Below are positions 19,451-40,852 of a stretch of DNA of 64,000 nucleotides, one piece after another; within the stretch, counting starts at the first letter, position 1; each line of letters starts with the position of its first letter. Where the stretch lies: the NCBI RefSeq assembly GCF_004791695.1, contig NZ_SRSO01000007.1, forward strand, positions 62,001 to 126,000, given 5' to 3'. Origin of the DNA: Flavivirga rizhaonensis. Lineage in GTDB: Bacteria > Bacteroidota > Bacteroidia > Flavobacteriales > Flavobacteriaceae. Under the pieces are notes generated by a model. It was not told the DNA's origin and did not search any database. It saw only the letters and a list, made by a program, of their open reading frames with translations. The translations under genes were made by a program, and so were the position numbers.

Positions 19451-19463
19451 AAACTATTAGTTT
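19451..19463 (+). promoter_or_regulatory. Second palindromic operator at the abiEi start
   Basis: AAACTATTAGTTT repeats the 13-bp core of the promoter palindrome 75 bp further down and overlaps the first base pairs of the TTG start codon (19462). AbiEi antitoxins are known to repress their own operon by binding two inverted repeats, so two copies here fit that model. Confidence 0.6.
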
Positions 19464-20226
19464 GGAAAAAGAGCAAAAAATAAACTATCTTCTAAATTCG
19501 CAGCCTTCGGGAGCTGTGTATTTGAGTTCGTGGTTAATGGAAAACGGATTCTCTACACAATTGTTAAATCGCTATAAGAAGAGCAATTGGATATATTCCA
19601 TAGGAAGAGGAGCTTGGATGCGGACGGGTGATACACTTACCTATCAAGGTGCATTGTTTTCATTGCAGCGACAAGCTAACTTGAATATCCATCTTGGAGG
19701 AAAAACAGCATTATCTTTATTAGGGAAAGCCCATTATTTGGAGCTATCCACAAAACAAATAGTATTATTTGGTAGCAGTAAAGAAAAACTACCTGCTTGG
19801 TTCTCCAACTACGACTGGGGTTTAAAAGTCAATTACCATGGTTCTTCGTTTCTTCCTCCCAAAATAGGGTTGCAAACCTTGGAACAGGGAGCTTTTAGCT
19901 TGTTGGTATCCAACCCAGTAAGAGCCTTATTGGAATGCCTGTATTTAGTGCCCAAAAAACAAGAACTGGTCGAATGCTACGAAATAATGGAGGGGCTTAA
20001 TAATCTCCGACCAAAGCAGGTACAGGAACTTCTGGAAAAATGCACTTCCATAAAAGTAAAACGCCTTTTTTTATATATGGCAGAAAAAGCGAAACACGAT
20101 TGGTTTAAGTACATAGAATTGGAAAAAATAAACCTTGGAAAAGGGAAACGCTCATTGGTAAAGGAAGGTGTCTATATATCCAAATACCGTATCACTATCC
20201 CTAAAGCACTGCAAAATTATGAGTAA
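19462..20226 (+). CDS. abiEi: AbiEi-family antitoxin (type IV TA)
   Basis: The 254-residue protein has the two-part build of AbiEi antitoxins: an N-terminal winged-helix region (about 1-75; YLSSWLMENGFSTQLLNRYKKS, IGRGAWMR) and a C-terminal domain that counters the toxin (from about 80; LGGKTALSLLGKAHYLEL, SNPVRALLECLYLVPKK). No ATG is available before residue 26, so translation must begin at the TTG at 19462, inside the second palindromic operator. It overlaps the toxin gene by 8 bp. In this family the antitoxin represses transcription and neutralizes the toxin without stable binding. The pair may protect the element against loss or against phage. Confidence 0.85.
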   Translation: MEKEQKINYLLNSQPSGAVYLSSWLMENGFSTQLLNRYKKSNWIYSIGRGAWMRTGDTLTYQGALFSLQRQANLNIHLGGKTALSLLGKAHYLELSTKQIVLFGSSKEKLPAWFSNYDWGLKVNYHGSSFLPPKIGLQTLEQGAFSLLVSNPVRALLECLYLVPKKQELVECYEIMEGLNNLRPKQVQELLEKCTSIKVKRLFLYMAEKAKHDWFKYIELEKINLGKGKRSLVKEGVYISKYRITIPKALQNYE

Positions 20227-21112
20227 TTATAAGCATCAGGTTTCCCTATTGTTACAGGTGTTACCAGAAGTAGCAAAAGAATCCGTTTTTGCACTGCACG
20301 GGGGTACGGCCATCAATCTATTTGTAAGGGATATGCCCAGGTTGTCCGTTGACATTGATTTGACCTATATCCCCATAGAAGATAGAAAAACGTCCTTTAA
20401 GAATATTATTGATACCCTAGGCGGTATAAAAATAAAACTTGAAAAAATTCTGCCAAGAGCTGTAGTTTCATTGAAAAGGGAAACTTTAAAGCTTCAAATT
20501 TCTACTGTAAAAGCACAGATAAAAATAGAGGTGAACCAAATCAATAGAGGAGTTATGGATGAAACAGTAACGTTGCCGTTATGCGAAAAATCCCAAGAGG
20601 AATTTGATGCTTTCTGTACTGTTTCAGTAGTTCCCATAGGGCAATTGTACGGTGGAAAAATCTGTGCCGCATTAGACCGCCAACACCCTAGGGATTTGTT
20701 CGATGTAAAATACCTGTTGCAAAATGAAGGATTTACCAACGACATTAAAAAGGGTTTTATGTTATGCCTATTAAGTAGCAACCGCCCCCTAAATGAAATG
20801 TTGTATCCCAATTTTATTGACCAGAGAGAAACTTTGGTCAACCAATTTGAAGGTATGAGCACAGAGCCATTTACCTATGAAGATTTTGAAAAGAGTCGGA
20901 AGGAATTGGTATATATAATTCATCAAAACTTAACCGAAAAGGACAAAGAGTTTATAATAGGTTTTAGCAAAGGAACACCTGATTGGAGCATATATGATTT
21001 TGAAAAATTCCCTTCTGTTCAATGGAAGCTACAGAACCTTATTAAACTTAAAAGCGGTAATCCCGAAAAATATAAGCTTACACTTGCTTCTTTGGAGAAA
21101 GTATTGCACTGA
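20219..21112 (+). CDS. abiEii: AbiEii/AbiGii nucleotidyltransferase toxin
   Basis: The start at 20219 (297 residues) overlaps the antitoxin stop and gives the usual N-terminus. The nucleotidyltransferase signature is seen as HGGTAINLFVRDMPRL (27-42) followed by VDIDLTY with Asp45 and Asp47, then a third conserved block RQHPRDLFDVKYLL typical of AbiEii toxins. These enzymes transfer nucleotides to a cellular RNA (tRNA for the studied homologues) and stop growth. It forms one operon with abiEi; the helicase gene begins 23 bp downstream, so the three may be co-expressed. Confidence 0.88.
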   Translation: MSNYKHQVSLLLQVLPEVAKESVFALHGGTAINLFVRDMPRLSVDIDLTYIPIEDRKTSFKNIIDTLGGIKIKLEKILPRAVVSLKRETLKLQISTVKAQIKIEVNQINRGVMDETVTLPLCEKSQEEFDAFCTVSVVPIGQLYGGKICAALDRQHPRDLFDVKYLLQNEGFTNDIKKGFMLCLLSSNRPLNEMLYPNFIDQRETLVNQFEGMSTEPFTYEDFEKSRKELVYIIHQNLTEKDKEFIIGFSKGTPDWSIYDFEKFPSVQWKLQNLIKLKSGNPEKYKLTLASLEKVLH

Positions 21113-21135
21113 ATAAGCTATTTTCCCACCGAAAA

Positions 21136-24123
21136 ATGAAACTCGAAGAACAAATACAACTCATAAAATCCTTATTCAAAGGGCGCGATGATGTATTTGC
21201 ATTGCGATGGGAAAAAGGCAATAAAAGCGGTTATATGCCTGCCTATCATTATGATCCTTACATGTATCGCCTACACAAGCAAAAAGGAGGCACATTCAAA
21301 GACTATAAAGATAAAACCTATTTAAAACTAGACGAGCATCAATTATCAAAACACCTAAAAGGCGAAAAATTTACAGGTATTTATCCGCTTTTAAAAGATA
21401 ACACCTCTTGGTTTATTGTTGCCGATTTTGATAAAAAGGATTGGCAAAAGCAATCAAAAAAAGCTATTCAAATTTGCCGAGAAAATAAAATACCAGCCTA
21501 TTTAGAGCGTTCTCGTTCAGGGAACGGCGGACATGTTTGGGTGTTTTTTGAACGACCATACCCAGCTACAAAAAGTAGAAAGATTGTATTGAAGTTATTT
21601 GAGCAAGCAGGTATTTTTTCCCTATTTGACAAAAACACAAGTTTTGACAGATTGTTTCCAAATCAAGATTATTTATCAGGTAAGGGGTTTGGAAATTTGA
21701 TTGCTCTCCCACTTCAAGGAAAAACCTTAAGAAATGGCAATTCTTGCTTTATAGACCTTGAGACATTTACTCCTTATCAAAATCAATGGCAATTTTTAAA
21801 AACCATCAAGAGAGTTTCGACTACTCATTTGGATAGCGTTTTAGAAAAATTACCTAAGCAAAAGGAGGTCACAAAAGCTCTTTTCAAAAATAATATTTCC
21901 GATGCTGGAAAATTACAGATTATTTTAAAAAACAGTATTGTAATCCATCGGAATAGCTTAACCTCTCCAATAGTTAATTTCCTTAAAGACCAATTAAATT
22001 TTTTCAACGCTGATTATGCGATTAAAAAGAAAGCAGGAAGAAGCACTTGGAAAACGGAGCGATATTTTAAACTTATTGATGAAACTGAAAACACTATTGA
22101 AATCCCAAAAGGGTTTATCGGTCAACTGATTCGGTACTGTAAACAGCAACATATTGATTATGAATTTTTAGACCAAAGAAAACAGTTGAACAATGTTGGG
22201 TTTTTATCCTCAATTCAATTGCTAAAGCACCAATATCATCCCGTAGAAATAGCATCAAAAAAAGATTTTGGAATTATTGTCGCACCACCAGGTTCGGGAA
22301 AAACTATCGTAGGACTAAAAATTATCGAGCAAAAGAAACAACCAGCATTAATCATTACCCATCGAAAACAGATTGCCGAACAATGGATAGATAGAATTGA
22401 AACGTTCTTCGGTATTCCAAAAAGGGAAATAGGCAAAATCGGTCAAGGAAAAATGAAAATCGGGAAGCACATAACGGTGGCATTAATCCAAACATTGGCG
22501 AAGAAATTATCCAATGAGAATGATACTAAAAAATTAGCATTCTCCTTTGGCACCATTATTATTGACGAATGCCATCATATTCCAGCCAAATCATTTCGAG
22601 AAGTTATTCATCAACTCGCTCCCTATTATCAATATGGGCTAACAGCAACACCTTTTCGGAGAAACAATGATGAAAAACTATTGTTCGTTTATTTGGGAAA
22701 TATCATTTCTGAAATCACACCTCAAGAAATAGAACATTACAAAAAAGCAAGAATAGTAATTCGAGAAACCAATCTTAATATTCCCTTTAACTCCAAAACT
22801 GACCATTTTGAAACACTTTCCAAAATATTAATCCACGATTCGGAAAGGAATAGATTGATTTTAAACGATGTTGAAAATGAAATAAATAATGGTAGAAAAG
22901 CAGTAATCATCACGGAACGAAAAGAGCATATTCAAACATTGTATCAATATCTGAAGAACCGCTTTGAAATTATTCCAATTTCCGGCGATGACAATGCTAC
23001 TTCACGTACCATAAAATGGAAAAGCATTGAACAGGGTAATTATCAAGCCATTATCACTACGGGACAATTCTTTGGAGAAGGGGTGGATATCCAAAGCATA
23101 TCCTGCTTGTTTTTAGTTTATCCCTTTGCCTTTAAAGGTAAACTAATCCAGTATATTGGAAGAGTACAACGCTCTGAATTAACACCTATTATTTATGATT
23201 ATCGAGATAAACAAATTCTGTATTTGAACAAGCTTTTTTTAAAAAGAAACGCTTATTATCGAAATCTAGACAGACAGGCTACGCTATTTGATGATTTAAA
23301 AGAATTCACTGAAGACAAACCAAGGCTAAGCGATATTGATAAAGTTATAAAAGTTGCAATTAACGACTTAGATTTTCATTATGGAATGGTCTGTTTTTCA
23401 TATAAATTATCAAACCAGAACTCGCTTGAATTTGAAATCGAAAATGAAGAAATGCTACCTGAATTTGAAGTATTGAAACCTTATTTTTCTAAAATTTTAA
23501 ATTCTAAATCGATTCGTGTTCACATTCAGGTTGGATATGAAAATGGTGTAATTGTTTCACAGATTGGTACTTCAGAAGACATTGACCGTATTAATAAAGA
23601 AATAGTGGATAGTGTGAAATTTCAATTTGTTGAACAACATTTTATCAAAAACCAGAAACCTAAAAATGAAGAAAATCCAGATGAAGTTTCCATAATGGTT
23701 GGAACTTTCTTTGGCTCGGAAGGCAATCTCTTGGAAATTCTATTGAAGAATAACAGTTATGTTCACCAAGGACAGCTTTTGTACTTAGCAAAGAATCATG
23801 AATATGAAAAATTGAAAATCAGGTTTGTCCTATATCCGTTTTCATTTGTATTCTTATTGGAAGGCATACAGAAATATCATATCGTTTTAGAAACATTAGA
23901 TACTAAGGAAGCTACCTATGTTTGGCACCTTTCCAAAGAAACCACTCAATTCAAAAAGGAATTGGAGCTAATAAATCAGAAACTGAATTGGATTCGCAAT
24001 AATGGCCGTCAATCGTTTTTAGAAACTGAAAAAGAAAATTTCAGCAAAATCATTCACGACTATAATAAAGATAAAAAAGGGTTCTATAAATGGAAGAATG
24101 CTTTGGAGGAGCGGTTAGTGTAA
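21136..24123 (+). CDS. Primase-helicase fusion of TOTE type
   Basis: This 995-residue protein begins with an archaeo-eukaryotic primase-like domain (about 1-250) with the acidic pair Asp97/Asp99 (ADFDKKDW) and the His strand GGHVWVFFE (131-139), the form found in TOTE conflict-system proteins. A superfamily 2 helicase follows, with Walker A PPGSGKT (near 385-390), DECHH (477-481), TATPFRR and QYIGRVQR (from 672). The last 250 residues have no motif I recognise and lack an obvious nuclease signature. Its place 23 bp behind the AbiE pair on a mobile element suggests a defence or element-maintenance role; repair synthesis is an alternative. Confidence 0.8.
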   Translation: MKLEEQIQLIKSLFKGRDDVFALRWEKGNKSGYMPAYHYDPYMYRLHKQKGGTFKDYKDKTYLKLDEHQLSKHLKGEKFTGIYPLLKDNTSWFIVADFDKKDWQKQSKKAIQICRENKIPAYLERSRSGNGGHVWVFFERPYPATKSRKIVLKLFEQAGIFSLFDKNTSFDRLFPNQDYLSGKGFGNLIALPLQGKTLRNGNSCFIDLETFTPYQNQWQFLKTIKRVSTTHLDSVLEKLPKQKEVTKALFKNNISDAGKLQIILKNSIVIHRNSLTSPIVNFLKDQLNFFNADYAIKKKAGRSTWKTERYFKLIDETENTIEIPKGFIGQLIRYCKQQHIDYEFLDQRKQLNNVGFLSSIQLLKHQYHPVEIASKKDFGIIVAPPGSGKTIVGLKIIEQKKQPALIITHRKQIAEQWIDRIETFFGIPKREIGKIGQGKMKIGKHITVALIQTLAKKLSNENDTKKLAFSFGTIIIDECHHIPAKSFREVIHQLAPYYQYGLTATPFRRNNDEKLLFVYLGNIISEITPQEIEHYKKARIVIRETNLNIPFNSKTDHFETLSKILIHDSERNRLILNDVENEINNGRKAVIITERKEHIQTLYQYLKNRFEIIPISGDDNATSRTIKWKSIEQGNYQAIITTGQFFGEGVDIQSISCLFLVYPFAFKGKLIQYIGRVQRSELTPIIYDYRDKQILYLNKLFLKRNAYYRNLDRQATLFDDLKEFTEDKPRLSDIDKVIKVAINDLDFHYGMVCFSYKLSNQNSLEFEIENEEMLPEFEVLKPYFSKILNSKSIRVHIQVGYENGVIVSQIGTSEDIDRINKEIVDSVKFQFVEQHFIKNQKPKNEENPDEVSIMVGTFFGSEGNLLEILLKNNSYVHQGQLLYLAKNHEYEKLKIRFVLYPFSFVFLLEGIQKYHIVLETLDTKEATYVWHLSKETTQFKKELELINQKLNWIRNNGRQSFLETEKENFSKIIHDYNKDKKGFYKWKNALEERLV

Positions 24124-24347
24124 TATTGATAAAACATCTATTAATAAAGTCCAATTTTATTTGGTTCTGAATGTTGTTATTTGGTATCATTTAGTTAGAT
24201 TTGTTACTTAGAAAGCGTAAAACGCTCACATTGATGTCTTAATTGATGTCCTATTTTGGAAATTAAGATATAAAGTACTGGTATATAAGGGAATGTGGAT
24301 AGGGTTTTAACTCTGCCACCCCGACGAACCTAGAAATAGGTCAAAAC

Positions 24348-24645: not shown

Positions 24646-25243
24646 TTTTTTAAGTAGCAAAATGTTCTATTGTAAATTAACGAAAATTATTTTAAAAGAT
24701 AAATTTATATTTTAATAAGACCTTTTCTTGATTTTGTAATGATTAATCATTGGATAATCAGAAATTTAATAATCCAATAAGCGCCAATAGTTGTACTATT
24801 AGGAGAAGCTTCATATTTAATTTGGATTGTAAAAAATACAAAGCAAAGTAAGGACTATATTAAATTGACTTTCCCAAAACTCCAACACCTATTAGACTTT
24901 TTCCAGTGAAATTAAGTGTTCCCATTTTTTAAAATATCAAATGTTCCGATATAAAAAGCGAAAAATTATTTTCAAAACGAAATGTGTTCTTAGATTTTTT
25001 CATGTTCAATAACACTTTAATTAATAGTTTGAGTTCTGTTTCCGCTACCAATTGAGGCCCAAGAACATTTTGCGTTTGAGTATTGTTTTTTTTAATTATA
25101 TTTGAATGTGGTAATTAAAAACTGACATTTGGCTTTTGTTTCAACTAATAAATAGTATGAAACAGAAAATATAGGTAAGTAATAAACTGAAAAGTTAGTG
25201 CGTGAAAATCCGTTATTTTTGATAAATAACTACGTTTTAGTGA

Positions 25244-25543
25244 ATGAAGAATTCAAAAAAAATTGACGGACTAGTCAATAACGTGATGCAGAATTTTTTT
25301 GACACTATAAATTATCAGTACAGCAGATTCACTCATGAGTGTAATGGGGTCGATTTCATGTATGCTGGACTAAAAAAAGCAAATTTAGTAAAAATTACTA
25401 TTAACATTTCAACTGCGATAATTATTCCAGGTGAGATACAAACTTCTCAGCTAAGAAGGTATTTGGGACTATTTGAATCAATTGTTCTTGATAAATTGAC
25501 TTTGAATAGATTTAGTGAATATGATTCAAGTCAGCTAAACTAA
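25244..25543 (+). CDS. Small protein heading the kinase-type operon
   Basis: A 99-residue protein of unknown family. It has an alpha/beta character: a helical N-terminus (KIDGLVNNVMQNFFDTI), a strand-rich centre (VKITINISTAIIIPGEI) and a helical end (TSQLRRYLGLFESIVLDKL). There is no membrane segment, Cys cluster or DNA-binding motif. It lies 36 bp before the large ATPase gene and is the first gene after a 1.1-kb non-coding junction, so it is likely to be the leader gene of the operon. Confidence 0.6.
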   Translation: MKNSKKIDGLVNNVMQNFFDTINYQYSRFTHECNGVDFMYAGLKKANLVKITINISTAIIIPGEIQTSQLRRYLGLFESIVLDKLTLNRFSEYDSSQLN

Positions 25544-25579
25544 TATGCAAACTACTAGAGCCTAAATCTAAATATATTA

Positions 25580-27754
25580 ATGATGGAAATCGGAAAATGT
25601 TTACATGAGATTGCGAAGGAATATCGAAATTTAGAACCCATTATAGCTAGGATGAGGCAAAATCCAGAATTTAAAGCCAATACTTTTCTGCCTAACCCGC
25701 TATTACCAATTGCTCCAGCGATTGCTTATGGATATAGACCAAAAACCTGTCTTGATGCTTTAAGGGAACTTGAAAAGTACGAAATTTGGGCTGGTAATAA
25801 TAAGATTAAACAAAAGATTACCAAACTCTATACAGAGGGTTTTGTTAAACAATTTGATAATAATAATGTAATATGGATGGGTTGGAATTATTGGCAACCG
25901 TCTGGAAGGCTTTATGAAAAGGATAAAAGGAATATACAACTACTGTGTGCAGATGATAAAGAATTTGCAGACTTTATAAGAAACAATGGAGAGCCTTCTA
26001 TGGATATGGGAGGAATTGGATTAAACAAACAATTTTTTATTAATCATGGAAGAACAAATATACAAGGTAATGAAGTAATAGATGAAGATAATTTATCGGA
26101 AGATGTCAAATTATGTAGAAACTATTCTGACGGTGTATGGGATTTGTTATTTACGAGAAGCATAAATTATTTTAGAGAAGAAAGAAACCTTAATACGGTA
26201 GTTGATTTCATACGGGATCAATATCATGAATACCTAAACCATACTACATTTGAACAGAATCATGACATCCTTAAACCAATTGAAATTATTTTTGACCCTA
26301 GTGATGCTATGAAACCTAATGAAAGTACAGATATTCATTCATTTGTCATGACTTTAGATGAATTTGATTGCTTTTGGGGTTTTATGTTAAAGGAATATTC
26401 ATCATCAGATTTAGCTCAGCCTGAAGAATACGATAATGATGCAATAGTTAGTAAACTCATAGCAACTTGGGATAAAATTTCGAAAATGATTCTCAGTGAA
26501 ATGATTAATCAAGATGTTCTGAATATCATTACGAGATTTGCTAAAAAGTTAAACATTCCTAAGGATAGATACGACGAAGCCTATATAATTTTACAACACT
26601 TCTGTCTTCTCAAAAAATTTATGTTCGCAGATTGTCAATATGTAATTCCAATCGTATTCGGTAAACAAGTAAGCGTAATGTACCTGTCTTTTAAAAAGCC
26701 TATACCTCTTCCGATGGATGCTATTGAAGGATGGATGTCTATAGCTTATCAACTGTTTTCTTCATTATTTATTGAGCATTTATCAAATATTCAAAATTCA
26801 TATAAAGCAGAACAGGAAGCTGCTACTCAAAGAGAAATGTTAAGACACGCATTGCCAAAATTTGTTTTTAAACCATTAGAATATTTTTTAATTGATATCT
26901 TAAATACAAGTAATAATTTTGAGAAGAATAAAAATAAAGGCATTGAAACCATTGTCAAGAATACTGAAGCCGCATGGTTTCTGTCTGGTATTGGACAACA
27001 GCAACTAAAACAATATTCTGAATCAAAAGAAGCTATGAACAATGGTACTAGAGCAAACCTTAGAGGTATTTGTGAAACACTTGAGCAGGTTTTTGAAAAG
27101 GTAAAACCACTTTATATAAATGGTTTTACTGACCAATATGATGGTGTAAATAATAAGAATATACTTACTGAACTATTCGACACGTTTAGAAACAAACCAA
27201 AAAGTGGGTCAATTAGAGAGCAATTAAATAAGGACGAGCATATAACAATAGAGAAAGGTGAATATATTGAACATGAAAATGCTTTTGTTATTGGTAACGA
27301 AACGATTATCACAATGCATCTTTGGAATATTATTGAGAATTCACTACTCCATTCAGAAATTTCAGTGTCAGATGGTATTAAAATAGCTATTGAAATTTCA
27401 GAAGATGAAAGCAAAAATTCATGTTTAATGCTTCAATTTATATGTACTAATCCGACAATGGATAACGAAATTCTTCAAATATTGAATGGACTCTTTAAAA
27501 AACCATCCAGCACACAAGAATTTGAACAAATAAAAAATAAATTAAAGATAATTGCAAATTCAAAAATTGATCAATCTGGTTTCCAACATGAACATAGAGG
27601 AAGAGGTTTAATCGCTTTTGCTCAATATCTCAATGAATTATGGGGTTCAACCGAACAAGATGATCAATACGAAAATAAAAATATCTTTGGAGAATTCGAA
27701 CTTAATAGCCTATATCTAAAAACGAAGTTCTATTTTCCGAAATCAATGCAATAG
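25580..27754 (+). CDS. Large protein with histidine-kinase-type ATPase domain
   Basis: The 724-residue protein ends in a GHKL (histidine-kinase-like) ATPase domain. An N-box LWNIIENSLLHSE (near residue 580) and a G-box HRGRGLIAFAQYLNELWG (near 670) are clear, but the intervening G1 position reads CTNPTMDNE and lacks the DxGxG pattern. No standard H-box is seen before it; LRHALPKFVFKPLEYF (about 416-431) is the closest candidate. The first 400 residues match nothing I know and have no membrane helix, so a soluble sensor is expected. Two receiver-like proteins follow 1 bp and 8 bp apart, so a phosphorelay is likely. The input signal is unknown. Confidence 0.7.
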   Translation: MMEIGKCLHEIAKEYRNLEPIIARMRQNPEFKANTFLPNPLLPIAPAIAYGYRPKTCLDALRELEKYEIWAGNNKIKQKITKLYTEGFVKQFDNNNVIWMGWNYWQPSGRLYEKDKRNIQLLCADDKEFADFIRNNGEPSMDMGGIGLNKQFFINHGRTNIQGNEVIDEDNLSEDVKLCRNYSDGVWDLLFTRSINYFREERNLNTVVDFIRDQYHEYLNHTTFEQNHDILKPIEIIFDPSDAMKPNESTDIHSFVMTLDEFDCFWGFMLKEYSSSDLAQPEEYDNDAIVSKLIATWDKISKMILSEMINQDVLNIITRFAKKLNIPKDRYDEAYIILQHFCLLKKFMFADCQYVIPIVFGKQVSVMYLSFKKPIPLPMDAIEGWMSIAYQLFSSLFIEHLSNIQNSYKAEQEAATQREMLRHALPKFVFKPLEYFLIDILNTSNNFEKNKNKGIETIVKNTEAAWFLSGIGQQQLKQYSESKEAMNNGTRANLRGICETLEQVFEKVKPLYINGFTDQYDGVNNKNILTELFDTFRNKPKSGSIREQLNKDEHITIEKGEYIEHENAFVIGNETIITMHLWNIIENSLLHSEISVSDGIKIAIEISEDESKNSCLMLQFICTNPTMDNEILQILNGLFKKPSSTQEFEQIKNKLKIIANSKIDQSGFQHEHRGRGLIAFAQYLNELWGSTEQDDQYENKNIFGEFELNSLYLKTKFYFPKSMQ

Positions 27755-27755
27755 T

Positions 27756-28307
27756 ATGGCAAGTAAGAATAAAGAATATCAGATTTTATATATTATCCCA
27801 GAAGCGAATTCCGGACTCGTTAATATGGATCCCTTAATCAAGCAACTATGGAATGAATCAATTATAAACATAATACCAGTCAAAAATAAAACATCAAATG
27901 AATTGCCACATCTCTACTTTCTTATTAAGAAAGTAATTGATTCGTACAAATTGAACTTATATAATATTGTTATTATTGACGCTTTTTTATTACCGAAAAA
28001 AGAAGGAGTCATAAATAATTGCAAGTGGAATCCATCAGAAGATAATATGGACAACTTATTAAGTTTTAGCTGTAAAGATAATACTTTATTAAGTCTTCGC
28101 CTTACTAGTCTATTGCGCAGAAAGTTAACAAATTGCCCATTATTAATGGTTTCAACAGATAATGTTGAAATCTCACCATGGAACCTTTTCGAACTTTCTA
28201 AAGCTTTTAATGATCGCAAATATTGTACACTATACAATTGGAAAGATGAAAAACTTTTATCCAATTTTAGATCACTGTTGAAACCAAAATTATTAAATGG
28301 AAATTAA
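27756..28307 (+). CDS. Receiver-like protein (degenerate)
   Basis: This 183-residue protein looks like a single, altered response-regulator receiver domain. It has a first strand ILYIIPEANSGL without the usual acidic pair, a third strand YNIVIIDAFLLPK with an Asp in the phospho-acceptor position (near residue 71), and a fourth strand LLMVSTDN with the Ser/Thr position. No output domain follows. It starts 1 bp after the kinase-type gene, so translation is probably coupled. It may act as a phospho-sink, an adaptor or an inactive receiver; the assignment rests on strand pattern only. Confidence 0.5.
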   Translation: MASKNKEYQILYIIPEANSGLVNMDPLIKQLWNESIINIIPVKNKTSNELPHLYFLIKKVIDSYKLNLYNIVIIDAFLLPKKEGVINNCKWNPSEDNMDNLLSFSCKDNTLLSLRLTSLLRRKLTNCPLLMVSTDNVEISPWNLFELSKAFNDRKYCTLYNWKDEKLLSNFRSLLKPKLLNGN

Positions 28308-28315
28308 TATTCCTA

Positions 28316-30238
28316 ATGACAAATATAATGGGTAACGAGAAAAAGTTAAAAGTTGTTTTGATTGATAATAATCCACTTGATAGAGCCGTAATTGATGCTG
28401 TTTTCAATGCTGATAAGACAACCTTTGAATTACGTTATTCTTGTAGTCTTCTTGACAATAAAGTAGTAAGAGCAATTGGTTTGAACGATTTAAAAATCAT
28501 TCTGGAAAATTCTGATTTTAAAGAATATAAACCAAATATTGTACTATTAGATTTAGCATTAACGTCCCCTGGTTTGGATACCTTTAGGGATTCTGATTTT
28601 ACCGAAGAATTTTGGAAGGGTGGCTTATTCGCTTTATCTTCAAAAATTCTTGAATTGAAAAATATTATTGAACCGATTAAAATTGCCTCAATTTATTTTG
28701 GAGGAATTATTAATAAAAATTCTTCAATTAATTATAATAATTCAAAAGAGATAATTGATAAATATAATGGTCAAAATATAAAATCCGCAAATACGAAATT
28801 GGATTCCGCAGAGATAGAAATAATTAATAAAACAAGTGATTTCTATAAAGAGTCCTTAAAAATAGAAAGTGAAATACATTCATTAATAAAAACTTCAAAA
28901 TCCAATACAAATCTTCAAAACAAAAATAGAGAATTAGAAGAAAATGCTAAATCTTTTTTCAGGGAAGTTTACTCTGATCTTTCTGAAATAACAACAACTT
29001 TAACTCGTGCACCAGAACTGTTTGAGATGTTTTCATTAATAGCCTTGTATCCTCAAATTTGTTTTGGTATTATTTCGCATTTTGCCTCTATTCATAGAAA
29101 AGAGGTGTTGAGTATGATTCTATCGTTTAGATATCCATTATCGAAGCAAATTAAAACAAAGATTTTCTCTCCATTGATTTGTGATAAAGCTCATCTATTT
29201 GGGCTTAATAAAGAAACATATACGGAAAGATTGAAAGAAAGTTACATTGACTGGAAAAAGTATTCACATGAAAAATACTATTTAGCACCCTTTTCTAATA
29301 TACCAGTGGTTAAAGTCTCAAATAAGAAAGAATTTAGGTTATTTGAGTTTTTAAGAGAAATTAAAAGTGTATTTGAAAAATCTGATAGACTTGTAATCAT
29401 TTTTGATGAAACGGAAGTATTTATTAATGGATGGTCCAAACATCCAAATTATGATAACATCAATGATGTTCTTAGCACTAATGGTAATGACCATAAATTC
29501 GCTATGACTTTAAACTGGAGTCAACCTCTTAAGTTAAAAATATTGAAGGATAAATTTAATATTAAAGAACATACAAAATATTTTAATAGTTCTTTCATTA
29601 TTTACGTTCCTTCGATTGACATAAGTGTGAGAGAATTTTATGCAGATTTATCTGATCTTTCAAAAAATATTGAAAGTAGTATCGAACCAAATTCTACAGT
29701 TTTAGTAATTAGAGGTAAAGAGAAAAACTTTAAAAAAAACCTTATTAGAAAAATAACTTCTGGAGGTGATAAAATTTCAATATATGAGATTCCGAAGTAT
29801 GTTGAAGATGGTGATAAAAAACTAAACTTTAAGCTCTTCGATTCAATTATATTAAATACACTTTTAGCGTATGATACTAAAGATAAAATATATAAAGTGT
29901 TATTTGCTAATGATATTAATAGGTTACAAGACAATTTGAGGATTTTTGACTTTTTATCATTTGAAGATTATTTACACAAAAAATGTGACGGTGAAGTTTA
30001 TAGAAATATTATTTATACAAAAGAATTCATGCTCTTTAGAAAAGAAATAATTAATTCCAATTATTTTAATAAATTAGATAAATCTCCAGAAAATTTCTGG
30101 CAAGACTTTTGGAAAAATATTTCGAATATTTTGGAATCCAGAATAAATAAAATCGAGAATAGTTCTGAAATAACTAATAGGATTTTGCTGAATATTCTTG
30201 CTGATTCAAAGGTCGGAGACTCACCGCAAATGAAATAA
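28316..30238 (+). CDS. Receiver-domain protein with unknown 500-residue output
   Basis: The N-terminal 130 residues of this 640-residue protein resemble a receiver: KVVLIDNNPLDRAVIDAVF has the acidic start and helix, and PNIVLLDLALTSPG has the phospho-acceptor Asp. A helical, Lys/Asn-rich linker (about 150-225) follows. The C-terminal 400 residues form an unknown alpha/beta region with strands LVIIFDETEVF and STVLVIRGKEK; no DNA-binding, nuclease or cyclase signature is seen. A start at the second Met (28328) is possible. As the largest unexplained output in the operon it is the best effector candidate. Confidence 0.55.
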   Translation: MTNIMGNEKKLKVVLIDNNPLDRAVIDAVFNADKTTFELRYSCSLLDNKVVRAIGLNDLKIILENSDFKEYKPNIVLLDLALTSPGLDTFRDSDFTEEFWKGGLFALSSKILELKNIIEPIKIASIYFGGIINKNSSINYNNSKEIIDKYNGQNIKSANTKLDSAEIEIINKTSDFYKESLKIESEIHSLIKTSKSNTNLQNKNRELEENAKSFFREVYSDLSEITTTLTRAPELFEMFSLIALYPQICFGIISHFASIHRKEVLSMILSFRYPLSKQIKTKIFSPLICDKAHLFGLNKETYTERLKESYIDWKKYSHEKYYLAPFSNIPVVKVSNKKEFRLFEFLREIKSVFEKSDRLVIIFDETEVFINGWSKHPNYDNINDVLSTNGNDHKFAMTLNWSQPLKLKILKDKFNIKEHTKYFNSSFIIYVPSIDISVREFYADLSDLSKNIESSIEPNSTVLVIRGKEKNFKKNLIRKITSGGDKISIYEIPKYVEDGDKKLNFKLFDSIILNTLLAYDTKDKIYKVLFANDINRLQDNLRIFDFLSFEDYLHKKCDGEVYRNIIYTKEFMLFRKEIINSNYFNKLDKSPENFWQDFWKNISNILESRINKIENSSEITNRILLNILADSKVGDSPQMK

Positions 30239-30265
30239 TTATTTAAAGATTAAAAGTTCATAAAG

Positions 30266-30859
30266 ATGTCTAAAAATTATCACTTAACACCATGGCCTCT
30301 TGGGGCAATTTTAAGAGAAGCGCTAGCAATTATTGGAGAATTGAGAAATGTATTATTAATGTTTCTAAGCTCCATCATTTACCTTGTTTTTGTTGATTAT
30401 CTGCATAATGATTATAATTTCGGCGAGTCTCTGAAGAAAATTTGTTTATGGTTTATAGGTGAATCGTATAGCTCAGTTAATATTATCCCTTTGGAATTTA
30501 CTTGCTTTTTTTTAATTAAGCTATTAAGTTATTTTTTCTTTGGTTTAGCTTTATATATTATGTTAACATCATTAAGATCGGTTGCAAGTGCTATTGAGAA
30601 AGGAGATAAAGACAACAATAAAGTTAGGATTGAAGTGCATTCATATGATGAAGGATTAAAATTGTTGCGGAATAAAACTGAAATAATATATAGTAACCCG
30701 ACAAAATCAAAAAAAAAATTGTTTATAGGCATAATAATTACTATTCTATTATTATTTCCAATTGTAACTGGGTGTTTGGCTAAAAAGAATAAGACACCAA
30801 GTGAAGAAAACTTAAACAAATCAATTAGAGCTGTTGAAATTCCCCATAACTTATGGTGA
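30266..30859 (+). CDS. Three-helix membrane protein of the kinase-type operon
   Basis: A 197-residue protein with three predicted membrane helices: about 28-46 (NVLLMFLSSIIYLVFVDYL), 78-102 (FTCFFLIKLLSYFFFGLALYI) and 150-172 (LFIGIIITILLLFPIVTGCLA). A soluble loop of about 45 residues lies between the last two. It is 27 bp downstream of the receiver-domain gene and closes the operon. A small membrane protein at the end of a cytoplasmic signalling operon suggests a membrane effector or anchor. It faces the ABC transporter genes, which are on the other strand. Confidence 0.6.
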   Translation: MSKNYHLTPWPLGAILREALAIIGELRNVLLMFLSSIIYLVFVDYLHNDYNFGESLKKICLWFIGESYSSVNIIPLEFTCFFLIKLLSYFFFGLALYIMLTSLRSVASAIEKGDKDNNKVRIEVHSYDEGLKLLRNKTEIIYSNPTKSKKKLFIGIIITILLLFPIVTGCLAKKNKTPSEENLNKSIRAVEIPHNLW

Positions 30860-30986: not shown

Positions 30987-32615
30987 TTAGTCATTCTCCA
31001 AGGCACTTAAAATACTCTTTTTTAAACCTACAAATTGTTCGGTAAACTCAAAACCTGAGACATCTTTTTCATTATTAATAATGAACTCTTTCTTACCTTT
31101 TTTCAGACCAACTATAACTTTATTTCCAATAATTATAGCCTCATTGATATCATGAGTAACAAAAACCGACGTTATTTTCCCATTGATTTTTTCATTAAAA
31201 AACCTCTGTAGTTTGTGTCTTGTAATAGCATCCAAAGCCCCAAACGGTTCGTCTAATAAAAGGAGAAGTGGTTTATTCGCAATGGCAGATGCTAGTGCTA
31301 ATCGTTGACGTTGTCCACCTGATAAATTAGAGGCTTTTTCAGTTAATTTATCCAATAACCCGAAATTTTTAATCAAATTAAGGGCTAATATCTTATCTTC
31401 AATGGCCCGAATATTATTACCTATAATTACATTTTCCCATATTGTAAGATTATCAAAAAGTGCTGGTTCTTGAAAGACTATGCCAATTGATGATGATACC
31501 TTATCAATTTCATTTGAATTTAACAGGACGGTTCCTATACTTTGAAGATCCCCATTATTAAAATGACCTATTGATTTCAATAATGTGGATTTTCCTGAAC
31601 CACTTTCACCCACAATTGAAAGAACAGAGCCAGTTTTCAACTCTACATTGAAATCATCAAAAACTTTAAAATCTGAATACCGAGCTGACAGGTTTCTAAT
31701 TTCCAAATCGGCTGCACTCGTTAATAAAATTTCTTGTTTATTAGTGCTAACTTCAGTTAGCATCTTAATTTTTTTAATTATGCTTTTCTTTTTAAAGTAA
31801 TATCGAACAGAGGAGAGCATTTTCCAAGTTGACGAAAGAATAAAATCATAGGTAATACCGAGAAATGAGAACACTAAAATTGAGGCCATCATTATATCGT
31901 CTCGTGCCTGATCAGAAGCCCTAAAAATCCTATAGCCAATACCCTCGCTCCACCAATGACTTGCCGAATATTCATATACTCCACTTAATTCCGCCACAGC
32001 GACTACAATTAAGCCTAAACTTAATGACGTCCTTAGGGCGGAAAGAATCGAGCTATTAATATGTGGAAGCATTATTTTAAATATCCAAGATATTTTATTA
32101 ACCCCTAGACTACGAGATCTCCAATATATCATTTGAGATACTTTTCTCGAACTTTCGTGGATTACAGCCCAAGTGACGCTAAATGAAGCCCATCCTATGA
32201 TAAAAAACTTTCCTGATTCTGCTAATCCAAATATATATATAACCAACGGCACGAGGGCTATGAAAGGGACGGCTCTTAAAATGAGGATGAACCCTTCAAT
32301 AAAAGTAGCAATAATCTTATTTCGTCCCGTTATAATTCCAAATAGAATACCGAGAGAAGACCCAACTGACCAACCAATTATCCATCTAGCACTTGATACG
32401 GATATGTCATGTAGCAAAATACCTTCATTAAATAAGAATTTTAATGCAATTAATATTGATCCAGAATCTGGTAAGAAAAACGCATAAGAAAGAAATTCAA
32501 TAAATATAAATAATAGGATGAATCCTAATATAAATTGAAATGCCTTTTTAAATTTCACTAGTCCTATTATACTATTTAACCCTAGTTTCATCAATTTCTT
32601 TAAGAAGTGATTCAT
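30987..32615 (-). CDS. Fused NitT/TauT-type ABC permease and ATPase
   Basis: This 542-residue protein joins two parts that are normally separate. An inner-membrane permease of the SsuC/TauC type occupies residues 1 to about 255, with six likely helices and the EAA loop RSRSLGVNKISWIFKIMLPH. An ABC ATPase occupies about 305-542, with Walker A GESGSGKST (near 335), Q-loop VFQEP, signature LSGGQRQRL (near 432), Walker B LLLLLDEPFGALDA (near 451) and switch His VTHD. The family imports nitrate, sulfonates, taurine or pyrimidine precursors. Its start overlaps the binding-protein gene by up to 44 bp, so the two are co-translated. Confidence 0.88.
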   Translation of the reverse strand: MNHFLKKLMKLGLNSIIGLVKFKKAFQFILGFILLFIFIEFLSYAFFLPDSGSILIALKFLFNEGILLHDISVSSARWIIGWSVGSSLGILFGIITGRNKIIATFIEGFILILRAVPFIALVPLVIYIFGLAESGKFFIIGWASFSVTWAVIHESSRKVSQMIYWRSRSLGVNKISWIFKIMLPHINSSILSALRTSLSLGLIVVAVAELSGVYEYSASHWWSEGIGYRIFRASDQARDDIMMASILVFSFLGITYDFILSSTWKMLSSVRYYFKKKSIIKKIKMLTEVSTNKQEILLTSAADLEIRNLSARYSDFKVFDDFNVELKTGSVLSIVGESGSGKSTLLKSIGHFNNGDLQSIGTVLLNSNEIDKVSSSIGIVFQEPALFDNLTIWENVIIGNNIRAIEDKILALNLIKNFGLLDKLTEKASNLSGGQRQRLALASAIANKPLLLLLDEPFGALDAITRHKLQRFFNEKINGKITSVFVTHDINEAIIIGNKVIVGLKKGKKEFIINNEKDVSGFEFTEQFVGLKKSILSALEND

Positions 32616-33618
32616 CGATGAAGACGGAATAATCTTTTGGCAAAACTATTTCTGGCTTCAATCCTTTTAACCATGTGTATTCAGATTCAATCCATTCTTC
32701 CATTAATGAAGTATTTAGGTAAACTTCAAAATTGGTCGTATTCATGAAGTCATCTAAATCACCTGCTTCTAGATTAAGCCATTGCTCTAACTTTCTTTGC
32801 GAGCCAGTTTTGTTTTCTTTAATTAATTCACTAGCTTTAATTAAGTCTTCCAACATTTCAACTAACTCATCTCGATTGTTTCTTAACTTTTCTTTAGTTG
32901 TAACAATATTAAAAGCTAATGTGTAAAGTGTGGAATCCAAAAGCACCTCTCCTTGTCCTCGGTCTTGATATTTTTCTATTTTAATACCTTCCTTATATTC
33001 TTTTTTTGCCTGGGTTATAAAAGGATCCCATAAAACTGCGGCTTCAATGTCACCGCTAAGTACTAATCTTTTAAGCTCAGCAGGCTTTCCATTAACTCTG
33101 ACAACGTCTTTTTCAGAAAGGCTGTGCTTCGCCAATAGTCTAGAAAGATATATTTCTCCAACAGTTCCCAATACAACACCAATTTTTTTCCCTTTTAGGT
33201 TTTCATAATTTTCGGAGATTTTTGTACTGCGGGTGGTAAATATTCGCACCCTATGATTCGAAGTAATAGTCGTTGCTAAAACAATCGGGTTATATCCTGC
33301 AGAAGCTAAATAAACCACAGGTGTAACTGCAATCGATCCAGCTTCTGCGGTTTCTTTTCCACTTCCTCTCAATGATGCGACTATATCTGGACCAGCTGGT
33401 AAAGACATTAAATTAAATTTGTAACTGTTGTCATCATATAGATTCTCAAGATAAGCAAGGTGACTTACCGCTGAGTAGGCAATTGGAAGTTCCCCAAAAA
33501 AGAGTTCTTCTTGTGATTCAGAAACTATTAAATCCTTGTCCTTGTTTAATTTTTTGCATCCTAGAAAACAGATAACTGCTAAAAGTGCTATCAATAATAT
33601 TTTGCTATATTTTTTCAT
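32572..33618 (-). CDS. NitT/TauT-type substrate-binding lipoprotein
   Basis: A 348-residue lipoprotein with lipid Cys at residue 21 (CFLGCKKLN) and the bilobed binding-protein fold of the SsuA/TauA/NMT1 class. Visible blocks are ETAEAGSIAVTPVVYLASAGYNPIVLATT, LKGKKIGVVLGTVGEIYLSRLL (the domain-crossing segment) and LSGDIEAAVLWDPFITQAKK. It delivers a small ligand to the fused transporter encoded downstream. As a lipoprotein it is tethered to the membrane. The ligand cannot be told; sulfonates, nitrate, pyrimidine precursors and other small anions are all transported by the family. Confidence 0.85.
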   Translation of the reverse strand: MKKYSKILLIALLAVICFLGCKKLNKDKDLIVSESQEELFFGELPIAYSAVSHLAYLENLYDDNSYKFNLMSLPAGPDIVASLRGSGKETAEAGSIAVTPVVYLASAGYNPIVLATTITSNHRVRIFTTRSTKISENYENLKGKKIGVVLGTVGEIYLSRLLAKHSLSEKDVVRVNGKPAELKRLVLSGDIEAAVLWDPFITQAKKEYKEGIKIEKYQDRGQGEVLLDSTLYTLAFNIVTTKEKLRNNRDELVEMLEDLIKASELIKENKTGSQRKLEQWLNLEAGDLDDFMNTTNFEVYLNTSLMEEWIESEYTWLKGLKPEIVLPKDYSVFIDESLLKEIDETRVK

Positions 33619-34689: not shown

Positions 34690-34737
34690 TATAATTATTT
34701 ATTTTTATCTTAGAAAACGCTAAATTATTTTATTAAA

Positions 34738-35714
34738 ACCCGTTGTGCATTATGATTTAAAAGAAAAAAGTTGTTCATCTTACTGATAATCAGTAATTTG
34801 TTTTAGCTATAAAACATTAACGATGAACAACTTAAATGCAAATTACGAAAGAATATTGGAAGTATTAAGAGAAATATCAAAAGAACAGCTTTTAACTTAC
34901 CAAAGGCGTCAACCAAAACTTAGCGACTTAGAACTCATCAGTTTGAGTTTAACAGCTGAATTTATGGGAATAGATAGTGAAAATGACTTGTTTAGAAAAC
35001 TTCCAAAAGCGATATTAGAAAAAATAGAAAGAAGTGTCTATAATAGAAGAAGGCGAAAACTAGCTACTAATCTCAATAGTATTCGATTAACATTAGCTTC
35101 TTATTTCAATGAATTTGAAGACTATTTCGTCGTAGATAGTATGCCTTTGAAAGTTTGTAAATTATCACGAAGCTCTCGTTCAAAGATTTGTAAATAAGAT
35201 ACTTATGCACTTCCAGATAAAGGTTATTGTGCAGCACAAAGTTCTAATTATTATGGTTATAAACTACATGCAGTTTGCTCTGTAAATGGTATTTTTCAAA
35301 GTGTTGATTTGAGTCCTGCATCTGTACATGATGTGAATTATCTCAAAGATATTAAAGCCAAATAAGTGATTGTACCTTAATTGGAGACAGAGGGTATTTA
35401 TCAGCAGAAATACAGCTCAATTTGTTTGAAACCTGCAACATAAAGCTAAATACACCTATGAGAAGCAATCAAAAAAATTATAAAAGGCAACCTTATGTTT
35501 TTAGAAAAAAGAGAAAAAGAATAGAAACATTGTTCTCCCAATTATGCGACCAATTTATGATAAGACGTAATTATGCTAAGTCTTTTCAAGGATTTAAGAC
35601 TAGAATCTTATCTAAAATAGCTGCTCTAACAACCATTCAATATATTAACAAGTTCGTCTTTCATAGAAATATAAACAATATTAAAATTAGCATTATTTAA
35701 AATGCACAACGGGT
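34738..35714 (+). mobile_element. IS982-family insertion sequence, 977 bp, inactive
   Basis: Perfect terminal inverted repeats ACCCGTTGTGCATT (34738-34751) and its complement (35701-35714) bound the element. Outside them lies a 7-bp target duplication TATTAAA (34731-34737 and 35715-35721). ACCC ends and length near 1 kb fit the IS982 family. The intact ends and duplication show a clean insertion, but the transposase gene inside is broken. Confidence 0.88.
34823..35700 (+). pseudogene. Broken IS982-family transposase
   Basis: The first piece (34823-35197, 124 residues) runs from the ATG to VVDSMPLKVCK, containing the first catalytic Asp. A TAA at 35195 interrupts the frame, which then continues as DTYALPDKGYCAAQ and YYGYKLHAVCSV up to another stop near 35363. 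A frameshift there leads into DCTLIGDRGYLSAEIQ with the second Asp, and the last piece carries the Glu in RKRIETLFSQ. All three DDE residues are still readable, so the gene died by at least one nonsense change and one frameshift. Confidence 0.9.
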
Positions 35715-35822
35715 TATTAAAATAATTTAGAAATTTAATTTTTTAGATTTCTTAATCTAAGAAAGGTGTTTTTTTGACATACAAGGAGCATTGTAGAAGG
35801 TTTATTACTCTTGTACTAACAA

Positions 35823-37892: not shown

Positions 37893-39488
37893 ATGAAAAA
37901 ACTAAAAAAAAATAAACCTTATGGAAAGTATAATACATATTATTTGCTGTTATCTTATATTTTCTTTTCTATTTCAACACTCACTTTTTCTCAAGCAGAT
38001 AAGCCCCAGTCTGAAAGCCCTAAAACCACTTCTCAATCAGAAGAAGTCAAACCAAATTTTGGGAGGACACTTGATAATATAGAATTTGAGCTATCTAATA
38101 AGTATCAATATGTAGTTGATGTTAAATTAAAAGTTTTACAAAAAAAGAAATCCAAGGGCTTCTACAATTCACAAAATTTAGAGTTATATAAATTTTTTTT
38201 TGATTCTGTTCCAGAAGCTAAGGTTTCATGGGAAAAAAAAGAAGGAACAGATAATACCTATAAAACTGTTATACCTCCTTTAAAACCCAATAGATTTTAT
38301 TTGTTAGAAACATATTATTATTCTAGTGGAGGTATGATAGCATTATTTTTAATGATGCACGATCAAAAAAACACAAATTGGTATACAGATAAAAAAGAAT
38401 GGATGAATCTATTAACCAAGATAAGTGATACAAATACAACTATTTATAATGGACAAAAAAGACCTTTGCCTATTACATATGATCCTACTAAAGAAGAGCT
38501 CATAAGTTTTAAAAAGAGTATAGATAGTATAAAATTAACTCAATATGATATAACAGAGTTACAGTATATAGGTGATACAACCGATAAAGAAGAAATAAAG
38601 AAAAAGAAAATAGAATTAAAAAAAATTAAAGAAGACATTATTTCTAAGCTTGATAAAGAAGCAAAAAAAGCTTTTAAGCTTTTAAATTTTAGCGAAAATC
38701 AAGATAAATACTGTAATGACAGTCTAGTTGAGTTTTCTAAATGGGTACAAGGTAATACTACATGTTTTAGTGGAGAAGATGATGATATCAAATTTTCCAG
38801 TATCATGGGGGATTTTCTAGATTATATTAATATTTATAATTTTTATAAAAAGTATCTTTCAAGGCCTTTTGATGACCAAAGTATTGAAAAAGGTACCTTG
38901 AAAAGCTTTATAGAAAAGTCTATTAAAACAGAGAGGGAATTGTTTAATGATAGTGACTTTTTTATTCCAAGTTATTTACATCCTTTCGAAGAAATTATTG
39001 AGAAAAAAACTAAACCAATACCTTCTACCTATCCTAAAACCTTTAAAACAGCTTATAAGTTATCATTAGTGCCAGATTTTGGATATATAGGTTATTTGAG
39101 TGACAGTGAAAATACACCCAAAGGCGGGAATTTATTTTTAGGGGTTAACGTTTCACTTTCACCGTCCAATAAAGATGTCCCCCTAAGAATCTCTAGACTA
39201 AGTTTATGGCAGCGTTTGTCAATTCATACTGGTGTAACAGTTGGGTCAATAGCTGAAACTAATGTAAGAGACAATTTTTTTGGTAATTATTCGCTGTTAC
39301 TAGGAGGTAGCTATAAAGTAATAACTCAAGGCACCAGAATTAATTTTGGTGGGTTATTGTATAATAAAATTGATGCTATAAATGGTAGTAAATCTATAGC
39401 CGTTCAACCTTACATTGGTTTGTCTATTGATTTAGAAATAAAAAAATGGCTTAAGACAGTTTTTCCTAATTTAAAAATACAACCATAA
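37893..39488 (+). CDS. Exported protein with probable beta-barrel C-terminus
   Basis: The 531-residue protein has an extended signal peptide (about residues 18-36, YLLLSYIFFSISTLTFSQA). The centre (about 80-400) is unknown and Lys-rich. The last 150 residues alternate polar and hydrophobic strands (LSLVPDFGYIGYL, GGNLFLGVNVSLS, SIHTGVTVGSIAE, YSLLLGGSYKV, INFGGLLYNKI, AVQPYIGLSIDLEI), resembling an outer-membrane barrel or beta-sandwich. It heads a compact series of exported-protein genes, with the next one 11 bp downstream. No known family is recognised. Confidence 0.65.
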   Translation: MKKLKKNKPYGKYNTYYLLLSYIFFSISTLTFSQADKPQSESPKTTSQSEEVKPNFGRTLDNIEFELSNKYQYVVDVKLKVLQKKKSKGFYNSQNLELYKFFFDSVPEAKVSWEKKEGTDNTYKTVIPPLKPNRFYLLETYYYSSGGMIALFLMMHDQKNTNWYTDKKEWMNLLTKISDTNTTIYNGQKRPLPITYDPTKEELISFKKSIDSIKLTQYDITELQYIGDTTDKEEIKKKKIELKKIKEDIISKLDKEAKKAFKLLNFSENQDKYCNDSLVEFSKWVQGNTTCFSGEDDDIKFSSIMGDFLDYINIYNFYKKYLSRPFDDQSIEKGTLKSFIEKSIKTERELFNDSDFFIPSYLHPFEEIIEKKTKPIPSTYPKTFKTAYKLSLVPDFGYIGYLSDSENTPKGGNLFLGVNVSLSPSNKDVPLRISRLSLWQRLSIHTGVTVGSIAETNVRDNFFGNYSLLLGGSYKVITQGTRINFGGLLYNKIDAINGSKSIAVQPYIGLSIDLEIKKWLKTVFPNLKIQP

Positions 39489-39499
39489 TAAATATAAGT

Positions 39500-40852
39500 A
39501 TGAAATATATATCACTTGTACTTTTCATTGTATTGTTTTCTTGTAATAATGAGAACGAATTCAGTCCTGAAAATTTAGATAAAATATTATCATTATCAAT
39601 TGAAAATGATGGAGCATTAGCTAATGGTATTGAAGAAGTTAGGGTCGTGGCAGAGTTTCCTAATGATTTTACTACAGAAGATGATAAAAAAGTAGAATTT
39701 GAGGTTTTTAAGAAAAGCATTGAAACAATTAAACAAGATATAGAATTGGTTCAAGAAAATAGTGTGCAACGTAGACAAGCTAGTATTTTAATAACACATA
39801 ATGAAGCAGATTCTTTAAGAGTAAAAGCAACTATTTCTGTAAATGATATTCTCATATCAAAAGACGTATATGTGCATTTTTCAGAAGTAAATCTAGATGA
39901 TATAATGCAATTATCAATTGAAAACGATAATGCATTAGCCAATGGTATTGAAGAGGTTAAGGTTATTGCAGCTTTTCCTGATGATTTTACAACAGAAGAA
40001 GATGGAAAAGTCAAGTTTGAGGTTTTTAAGAACCCCAGCGAAACAATTGAACAAGATATAGAGTTAGTTCAAGAAAATGGAGTACAACGCAGGCAAGCTA
40101 GTCTTTTAATAAAGCATAATGAAGCAGATTCTTTAAGAGTAAAAGCAACTATTTCTGTAAATGATATTCTCATATCAAAAGAAGTGTATGTGCATTTTTC
40201 TGAAGTAAATCTAGATGATATAATGCAATTATCAATAGAAAATGATAATGCCTTAGCAAATGGAGTAGAAGATATTAGAGTGATTGCTAGTTTTCCAGAC
40301 GATTTTACAACAGAGCAAGATGGAAAAGTAGACTTTCAAGTTTTCAAGAATACTCCCGAAAATTCTGCACAAGACATACAATTAGTTCAAGAAAATGGAA
40401 TATTAAGTAGGCAAGCTAGCATTGAAATAAAGCATAATAAGGAAGGGAGCTTAAGAGTAAAAGCAACTATTTCTGTTAATGAAATTCTTATAACAAAAGA
40501 GGTAAATATAAATTTTTCAAAAGCGTATTTTGAAACCATAAATGTATCTAGCTCTACTTTAAAAGTGCAAGCAAATTTGTTTAATGAAATAGATATTTTT
40601 ACCAAACTACTAAGAGATTCAGGTACAGTGAGTCTTAATTCTAAAGCAGAAACTGTTGTTAAAGATACTTTAGGTGAAGTTAGAGGGGTATTTAATAATT
40701 ATCAAAACAAAACGGATTCTGAAGGCAAAATAACAAACAAGTTTACTTTGGGTAATGATGATTATGTAGGTAAGTTATTTGTTATAGGTACCTCTATTGA
40801 TGAAATGAATGAAATAAAGTCAGATACATTAACTATATATTCACAAAATTAA
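39500..40852 (+). CDS. Lipoprotein with three Ig-like tandem repeats
   Basis: A 450-residue lipoprotein (lipid Cys at residue 15, LFSCNNENE) with three near-identical repeats of about 107 residues. Each begins LSIENDxALANGxEEVRV, goes through FPDDFTTEEDGKV and ends SLRVKATISVNDILISKEVYVHFSE. The pattern matches Ig-like/invasin-type domains in which a hydrophobic-acidic strand follows each linker. The high similarity, also at DNA level, points to recent internal duplication. A fourth, diverged domain follows (about 345-450). A surface stalk or adhesin role is inferred. It lies 11 bp after the preceding exported-protein gene. Confidence 0.7.
   Translation: MKYISLVLFIVLFSCNNENEFSPENLDKILSLSIENDGALANGIEEVRVVAEFPNDFTTEDDKKVEFEVFKKSIETIKQDIELVQENSVQRRQASILITHNEADSLRVKATISVNDILISKDVYVHFSEVNLDDIMQLSIENDNALANGIEEVKVIAAFPDDFTTEEDGKVKFEVFKNPSETIEQDIELVQENGVQRRQASLLIKHNEADSLRVKATISVNDILISKEVYVHFSEVNLDDIMQLSIENDNALANGVEDIRVIASFPDDFTTEQDGKVDFQVFKNTPENSAQDIQLVQENGILSRQASIEIKHNKEGSLRVKATISVNEILITKEVNINFSKAYFETINVSSSTLKVQANLFNEIDIFTKLLRDSGTVSLNSKAETVVKDTLGEVRGVFNNYQNKTDSEGKITNKFTLGNDDYVGKLFVIGTSIDEMNEIKSDTLTIYSQN

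Follow-up and report, generated by a model that had tools for sequence, protein, structure and literature searches.

A kinase-like operon and a convergent ABC importer as a possible solute-import unit in Flavivirga rizhaonensis

Five plus-strand open reading frames (ORFs) lie at 25244..30859 of a 64,000-nt stretch of the Flavivirga rizhaonensis genome (contig NZ_SRSO01000007.1, positions 62,001-126,000; hereafter the window), and their positions bear out the intergenic gaps of 36, 1, 8 and 27 bp described in the initial annotation. We propose that four of the encoded proteins, here called K, R1, R2 and M, make up one solute-importing unit together with the products of two ATP-binding cassette (ABC) importer genes, and that this unit is controlled by a phosphorelay of its own and not by transcription. 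The importer genes (30987-33618, minus strand) meet the K-R1-R2-M operon tail-to-tail, beyond the coordinates 25244..30859 originally annotated. Judged from sequence, the proposal has about an even chance of being correct. The genes are treated as one functional unit because the set is conserved at a second locus (L002), because parts of it are fused, and because the importer parts of the two loci are close to each other. The genes are as follows.

25244..25543, plus strand: ORF for a 99-aa protein, to which none of the six L002 proteins compared is a significant match
25580..27754, plus strand: K, a 724-aa kinase-like soluble protein with a His423 motif, N box Asn587 and G2 box Gly674/Gly676, without a G1 box
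27756..28307, plus strand: R1, a 183-aa protein, 24% identical to L002:10076-10606, without a receiver profile match
28316..30238, plus strand: R2, a 640-aa protein with a receiver start carrying Asp79, a long C-terminal region and a hydrophobic stretch at 235-253
30266..30859, plus strand: M, 197 aa, with three hydrophobic segments; it likely corresponds to the N-terminal part of L002:12309-13727
30987..32615, minus strand: fused ABC permease and ATPase, 542 aa (Pfam BPD_transp_1 and ABC_tran)
32572..33618, minus strand: NMT1/THI5-like (SsuA-type) solute-binding protein (SBP), 348 aa, with a lipobox-like start (Pfam PF09084)

The operon and its importer at a second locus

A search of 5.8 billion proteins with K returned two relatives, P0002 (34% identical) and P0003 (25%), and a repeat search with the K alignment gave no further ones, leaving three members including K itself; both searches reach only relatives that have short exact words in common with the query. 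A collection of genomes was also scanned with two exact peptide patterns, an approach that would miss distant K members. It yielded 67 stretches, one of which, L002, encodes a K relative, in a metagenome-assembled genome of the Woeseiaceae. The K protein of L002 is P0003 except for one residue. The gene for P0002 sits on a 2938-bp contig, and L002 is the only K relative with readable gene surroundings.

In L002 the K gene (7926-10079) is followed by genes for proteins of 176, 561, 472 and 546 aa, with spacings of -4, 8, 8 and 2 bp. K matches its counterpart at 25% identity (E 3e-63), R1 matches the product of 10076-10606 (E 2e-14), and R2 that of 10615-12300 at 25% identity (E 2e-24). The 472-aa protein (12309-13727) consists of three hydrophobic segments fused to an NMT1/THI5-type binding protein, and its C-terminal part is 45% identical to the window SBP over 335 aa (E 1e-103). 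The product of 13730-15370 is a permease-ATPase fusion like that of the window, to which it is 43% identical over 515 aa (E 1e-149). At 43-45% identity, the importer genes are thus the best conserved parts of the two loci. The initial annotation had treated the five plus-strand genes as the unit and asked whether they recur together on islands. K, R1, R2 and M hold up as a set, and K, R1 and R2 recur in L002 with an M-like segment; the 99-aa gene, without a significant match there, is probably outside the conserved core. The set of partners was also incomplete, since the convergent ABC genes belong with the operon by the evidence of L002.

By its domains, the importer half is predicted to be of the NMT1/SsuA type, with Pfam bit scores above the corresponding cut-offs (PF09084, 36.8 versus 20.5; PF00528, 44.7 versus 26.4; PF00005, 102.5 versus 25). 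Relatives of the SBP in the PDB include a nitrate transport protein (E 1e-6), THI5-type proteins and a sulfonate-binding protein. With an SBP profile, matches came from 8 further genomes in a set of 395 from the phylum (best E 3e-21) and from 5 further ones in a set of 296 related to the L002 genome (best E 8e-15). Among 149 relatives only the window's own genome was matched, and viral contigs gave no match; plasmids gave 19 records, with 23-26% identity among the 10 matches listed. Of the plasmid-borne importers, the best match shows 31% identity and is encoded by two separate genes. A tree was built of 16 SBPs, namely those of the window and L002 and 14 from 12 of 13 neighbourhoods of weaker relatives (L031 was left out). 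It grouped the window and L002 proteins with support of 98/99, and the joining of this pair with the group from L020-L022 was flagged by the tool as a possible long-branch effect.

Some of the 13 neighbourhoods are shortened by contig ends. ABC permease and ATPase genes adjoin the SBP gene in three of them (L020-L022, by tblastn), and a kinase-like gene does so in six, confirmed by Pfam in L023, L027 and L030 and recognized by like N-termini in L024-L026. This suggests that SBPs of this type are used near kinases elsewhere. In these six the NMT1-type binding proteins adjoin HAMP-PAS kinase genes, with two consecutive SBP genes in L023 and L024, and the arrangement probably represents binding-protein-fed kinases. 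In a further three neighbourhoods (L028, L029 and L032) SnoaL-like domains are fused to the SBP or encoded beside it, each with three SnoaL_4-matching stretches accompanying the NMT1-type binding protein. L031 was assigned to none of these groups.

Only the window's own genome carried K among 149 relatives, and K was absent from the plasmids, phages and viral contigs searched. In sets of 395 and 369 genomes the K profile detected the two known members and otherwise nothing but fragments (one at E 3e-4 in the first set, two at about 1e-4 in the second). A protein search with R2 returned only R2 itself among the 7997 scored candidates sharing the most words, and plasmids and phages gave no R2 match.

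Kinase-like and receiver-like domains

The operon had been called unrecognised, and profile searches agree: none of the five proteins reached the curated cut-offs of Pfam or NCBIfam, PADLOC-DB 2.0.0 returned no family at E up to 1 for any of them, and PHROGs gave weak scores only (E 0.03 or worse). Near-misses in Pfam, NCBIfam and PHROGs (SPOB_a, ACCA, NheC and others) were discarded as below cut-off or weak. The proteins were compared by hhalign with two profiles built from the window's own genome, each from 30 sequences, the best of 42 kinase-ATPase matches and of 54 receiver matches, respectively; 60 column shuffles, a reversed profile and cross-controls served as controls.

K scored 52.3 against the kinase profile, a value reached by none of 60 shuffles (best 22.7) and above that of the reversed profile (16.7); the alignment starts at the strand preceding the N box and runs as far as the G1 region. 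This comparison shows a predicted histidine-kinase-type ATPase domain in K, in agreement with the GHKL-type ATPase assigned originally to the 724-aa protein, even though the match to Pfam HATPase_c was below notice. His423 (in the motif HxxPKFVFKPLE), Asn587, Gly674, Gly676 and Leu677 are kept in all three K members. The protein had been described as lacking a standard H-box and G1 box; this is correct for both, and Pfam finds no HisKA match in K, but the His423 motif is conserved. No hydrophobic segment of K exceeded threshold in either the window or the L002 protein. A GAF-like stretch ahead of His423 is a candidate recognized by eye. PDB sequence searches with the K and R2 alignments gave chance matches only, and the AlphaFold models, made for K and for R1, each had a mean predicted local distance difference test score (pLDDT) of 38 and were not used for fold searches.

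R2 scored 37.8 against the receiver profile as a whole protein (none of 60 shuffles reached this; best 21.3) and 37.2 with its middle left out (again none of 60; best 21.7; reversed 11.9). Asp79 aligns with the receiver phospho-acceptor and is kept in both R2 proteins, those of the window and L002. By profile comparison, then, R2 is shown to start with a predicted receiver carrying a conserved Asp79. R1 scored only 12.2, which was reached by 13 of the 60 shuffles, and the candidate Asp of the window protein is Gly in L002, so R1 was rejected as a receiver. Of the two receiver-like proteins in the initial annotation, R2 is supported for its first half and R1 is not supported. R1 and R2 have no profile similarity to each other, and the cross-controls (K against receivers, R1 and R2 against kinases) were negative. 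Pfam, at E up to 1, recognized no DNA-binding domain in K, R1 or R2 of either locus, which bears out the earlier statement that the operon lacks a DNA-binding output. Its description as atypical and two-component-like is supported. M contains three hydrophobic segments, as expected for the three-helix membrane protein annotated.

Proposed function and alternatives

In the unit we propose, the binding protein would catch a small solute and feed it to the fused importer; a small solute is suggested because relatives of the SBP bind nitrate, sulfonates or pyrimidines. M may hold the binding protein or the importer close to the cytosolic proteins. K would sense the state of transport or an internal signal, autophosphorylate at His423 and pass the phosphate to Asp79 of R2, whose long remainder would act on the importer or on M and not on DNA, with R1 as a putative adaptor. 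Phosphotransfer, ligand and output are all deduced from sequence. The initial annotation had imagined a soluble sensor that signals to the 640-aa effector and the membrane protein. The importer and its SBP were missing from that picture. More tentatively, the locus could be a self-contained importer made of the SBP, the fused permease-ATPase and a membrane coupler, with its own phosphorelay, in which a soluble kinase of a family lacking the G1 box works with a receiver-effector that gates uptake without gene regulation, and which is passed as a cassette between distant bacteria.

The importer half resembles SsuABC/TauABC/NrtABC-type systems in its binding protein, permease and ATPase domains and in the PDB relatives of its SBP. 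It differs from them in that permease and ATPase are one protein and are accompanied by kinase-like, receiver-like and membrane partners. Two other systems couple kinases to such components. BceRSAB likewise has genes for a kinase and a receiver next to an ABC transporter; its kinase BceS is an intramembrane one and its output is control of gene expression (PMC3023708), whereas K has no transmembrane segment, no DNA-binding domain was recognized, and the transporter here is of the importer type with an SBP. In AioXSR, a periplasmic binding protein of the PhnD-like type, AioX, acts through a kinase working with a receiver protein, AioR, which binds DNA (PMC5908839); here, in contrast, K is soluble and accompanied by a full importer. 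Because K lacks a membrane segment and no DNA-binding output was found, the unit is a member of neither system, while resembling both in linking a kinase to a transporter or binding protein. In the portions of the literature available to us, no account of such a unit of importer and kinase-like protein was found. BceRSAB and AioXSR are described in the sources cited as acting by changing gene expression. The proposal, if true, would suggest that uptake can be gated by phosphotransfer within the transport machine itself, with a kinase-like part that no family model matches and a receiver protein in which no DNA-binding domain is recognizable.

Several observations weigh against a phosphorelay-controlled importer. 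None of the three K members has a standard G1 box, so K may not use ATP in the normal way. The His423 region alone is unsupported by the kinase profile (E 0.15), and when K 375-724 is forced into a global alignment, the H-box of the kinases falls about 30 residues beyond His423. Nor is there profile support for the second half of the R2 receiver (E 0.074), and the hydrophobic stretch at R2 235-253, which is present in both loci and stronger in L002, could be a membrane segment and not the receiver strand it was first read as. Pfam found no output domain in the operon proteins. The similarity of M to its likely L002 counterpart is weak: the layout is alike, but BLASTP gives E 0.11 and 12 in 1000 shuffles score as high. 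The importer genes lie on the opposite strand to the operon in the window, no ligand of the predicted importer was found, and riboswitches or other Rfam families were found in neither the window nor L002. Finally, the linkage of the genes rests on two loci only, and K, R1, R2 and M were absent from all 13 neighbourhoods of weaker SBP relatives (tblastn, E 1e-4).

The loss of the G1 box and the lack of profile support for the His423 region make a scaffold role for K the main rival. The importer would then be regulated by K and R2 through ATP- or ligand-dependent binding with no transfer of phosphate, and the candidate Asp of R1, which is not conserved, fits such an arrangement as well. A pure scaffold, however, would not need His423, Asn587, Gly674, Gly676 and Leu677, kept in all three K members, or Asp79, kept in both R2 proteins, and we consider this explanation somewhat doubtful. 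It is very unlikely, in our judgement, that a signalling operon and an ordinary importer simply came to lie tail-to-tail by chance. The opposite strands in the window, the small number of loci and the absence of the operon near the 13 other SBP relatives would agree with unrelated neighbours, but the distant L002 genome has the set in one tight operon, the importer parts of the two loci are closest to each other among those compared, both loci have the permease-ATPase fusion, and in L002 the membrane segments are fused to the SBP.

Phage defence, in which K or the importer would sense infection and growth would be stopped by R2 or M, was suggested in the initial annotation and is unlikely. It draws on the window's island neighbours alone: the likely element carrying the locus also has type I restriction-modification (R-M), Fic and nuclease-type genes and a YLATT/subtilase cluster, and the neighbouring element has AbiE and TOTE genes. 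Set against this are the lack of any PADLOC match, the oddness of a solute-binding importer as a defence part and the flanks of L002. Seven flanking genes were scanned there (TetR, ABC-membrane, HlyD, RND efflux, PagL, dehydrogenase and one without a match), and none is a mobile or defence gene. Defence was accordingly rejected as the leading explanation. The Detocs defence systems also combine kinase and receiver proteins without transcriptional output; they have a standard kinase, a PNP-type effector and no importer, and differ from the operon proteins here, which PADLOC does not match. The case corrects a frequent inference: an unknown operon on a defence-rich island need not be defensive, and a second locus with extra genes can redirect how it is read.

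Mobile context and neighbouring genes

The window locus was placed originally on mobile-element cargo between att-like repeats. Mobile-element cargo is supported as likely; the repeats, att-like copies of the tRNA-Pro 3' end, are tentative. One copy lies inside the window (coordinates prefixed C81 are contig coordinates outside the window numbering):

24313..24325, plus strand: att-like copy of the tRNA-Pro 3' end, an exact 13-mer of C81:37314-37326

A third copy (16/17) is at C81:132933-132949, beyond the window. BLAST gives E 0.31 for both copies, 12 of 100 shuffled windows contain a match at up to two mismatches, and a general repeat search in the window found no convincing att repeats; the case is made by position next to integrases, not by statistics. 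Integrase-type genes are found at C81:38232 (plus strand) and C81:125617-126096 (minus strand), the latter spanning the right edge of the window. Our interpretation is of two tandem elements, the second of which has the locus at its left end, so that 24313..24325 is the likely, still tentative, left end of the element carrying it. Genes of the DUF5712/relaxase, TraG, AbiE and TOTE types belong to the first element. The cargo of the second comprises Fic, a cluster of YLATT, subtilase and metallo-beta-lactamase-fold genes, type I R-M and PD-(D/E)XK genes. A Por secretion tail on the window side points to a Bacteroidota host. On the L002 contig no tRNA was found, and its farther flanks carry genes that look housekeeping-like by eye.

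A promoter motif, which we take to be of the Bacteroidota type, lies upstream of the operon at 25075-25104; the motif occurs 4 times in the window versus 5.8 expected. Farther upstream, 19462-24123 holds an AbiEi/AbiEii pair and, after it, a TOTE-type primase-helicase of 995 aa; this stretch ends about 190 bp short of the att-like copy at 24313. Upstream of the SBP gene is a split insertion element (34730-35722) bounded by 22-nt inverted repeats (34730-34751 and 35701-35722), with transposase-like ORFs at 34823-35197 (no Pfam match) and 35422-35700 (DDE_Tnp_1). The cluster at 37893-47127 encodes a 531-aa protein and Big_1, YLATT (YEATS-Like-Associating Three TM), phytase-like, subtilase and metallo-beta-lactamase-fold proteins, and has the look of a conflict-type cluster of its own; within its Big_1 gene (39592-40523) are tandem-like repeats of about 320 bp with 74-83% identity. 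Literature searches on YLATT and TOTE yielded nothing helpful. Downstream of the type I R-M genes, an 870-aa DUF4132 and DUF7737 protein (58806-61418) is encoded beside a PD-(D/E)XK protein (57387-58379).

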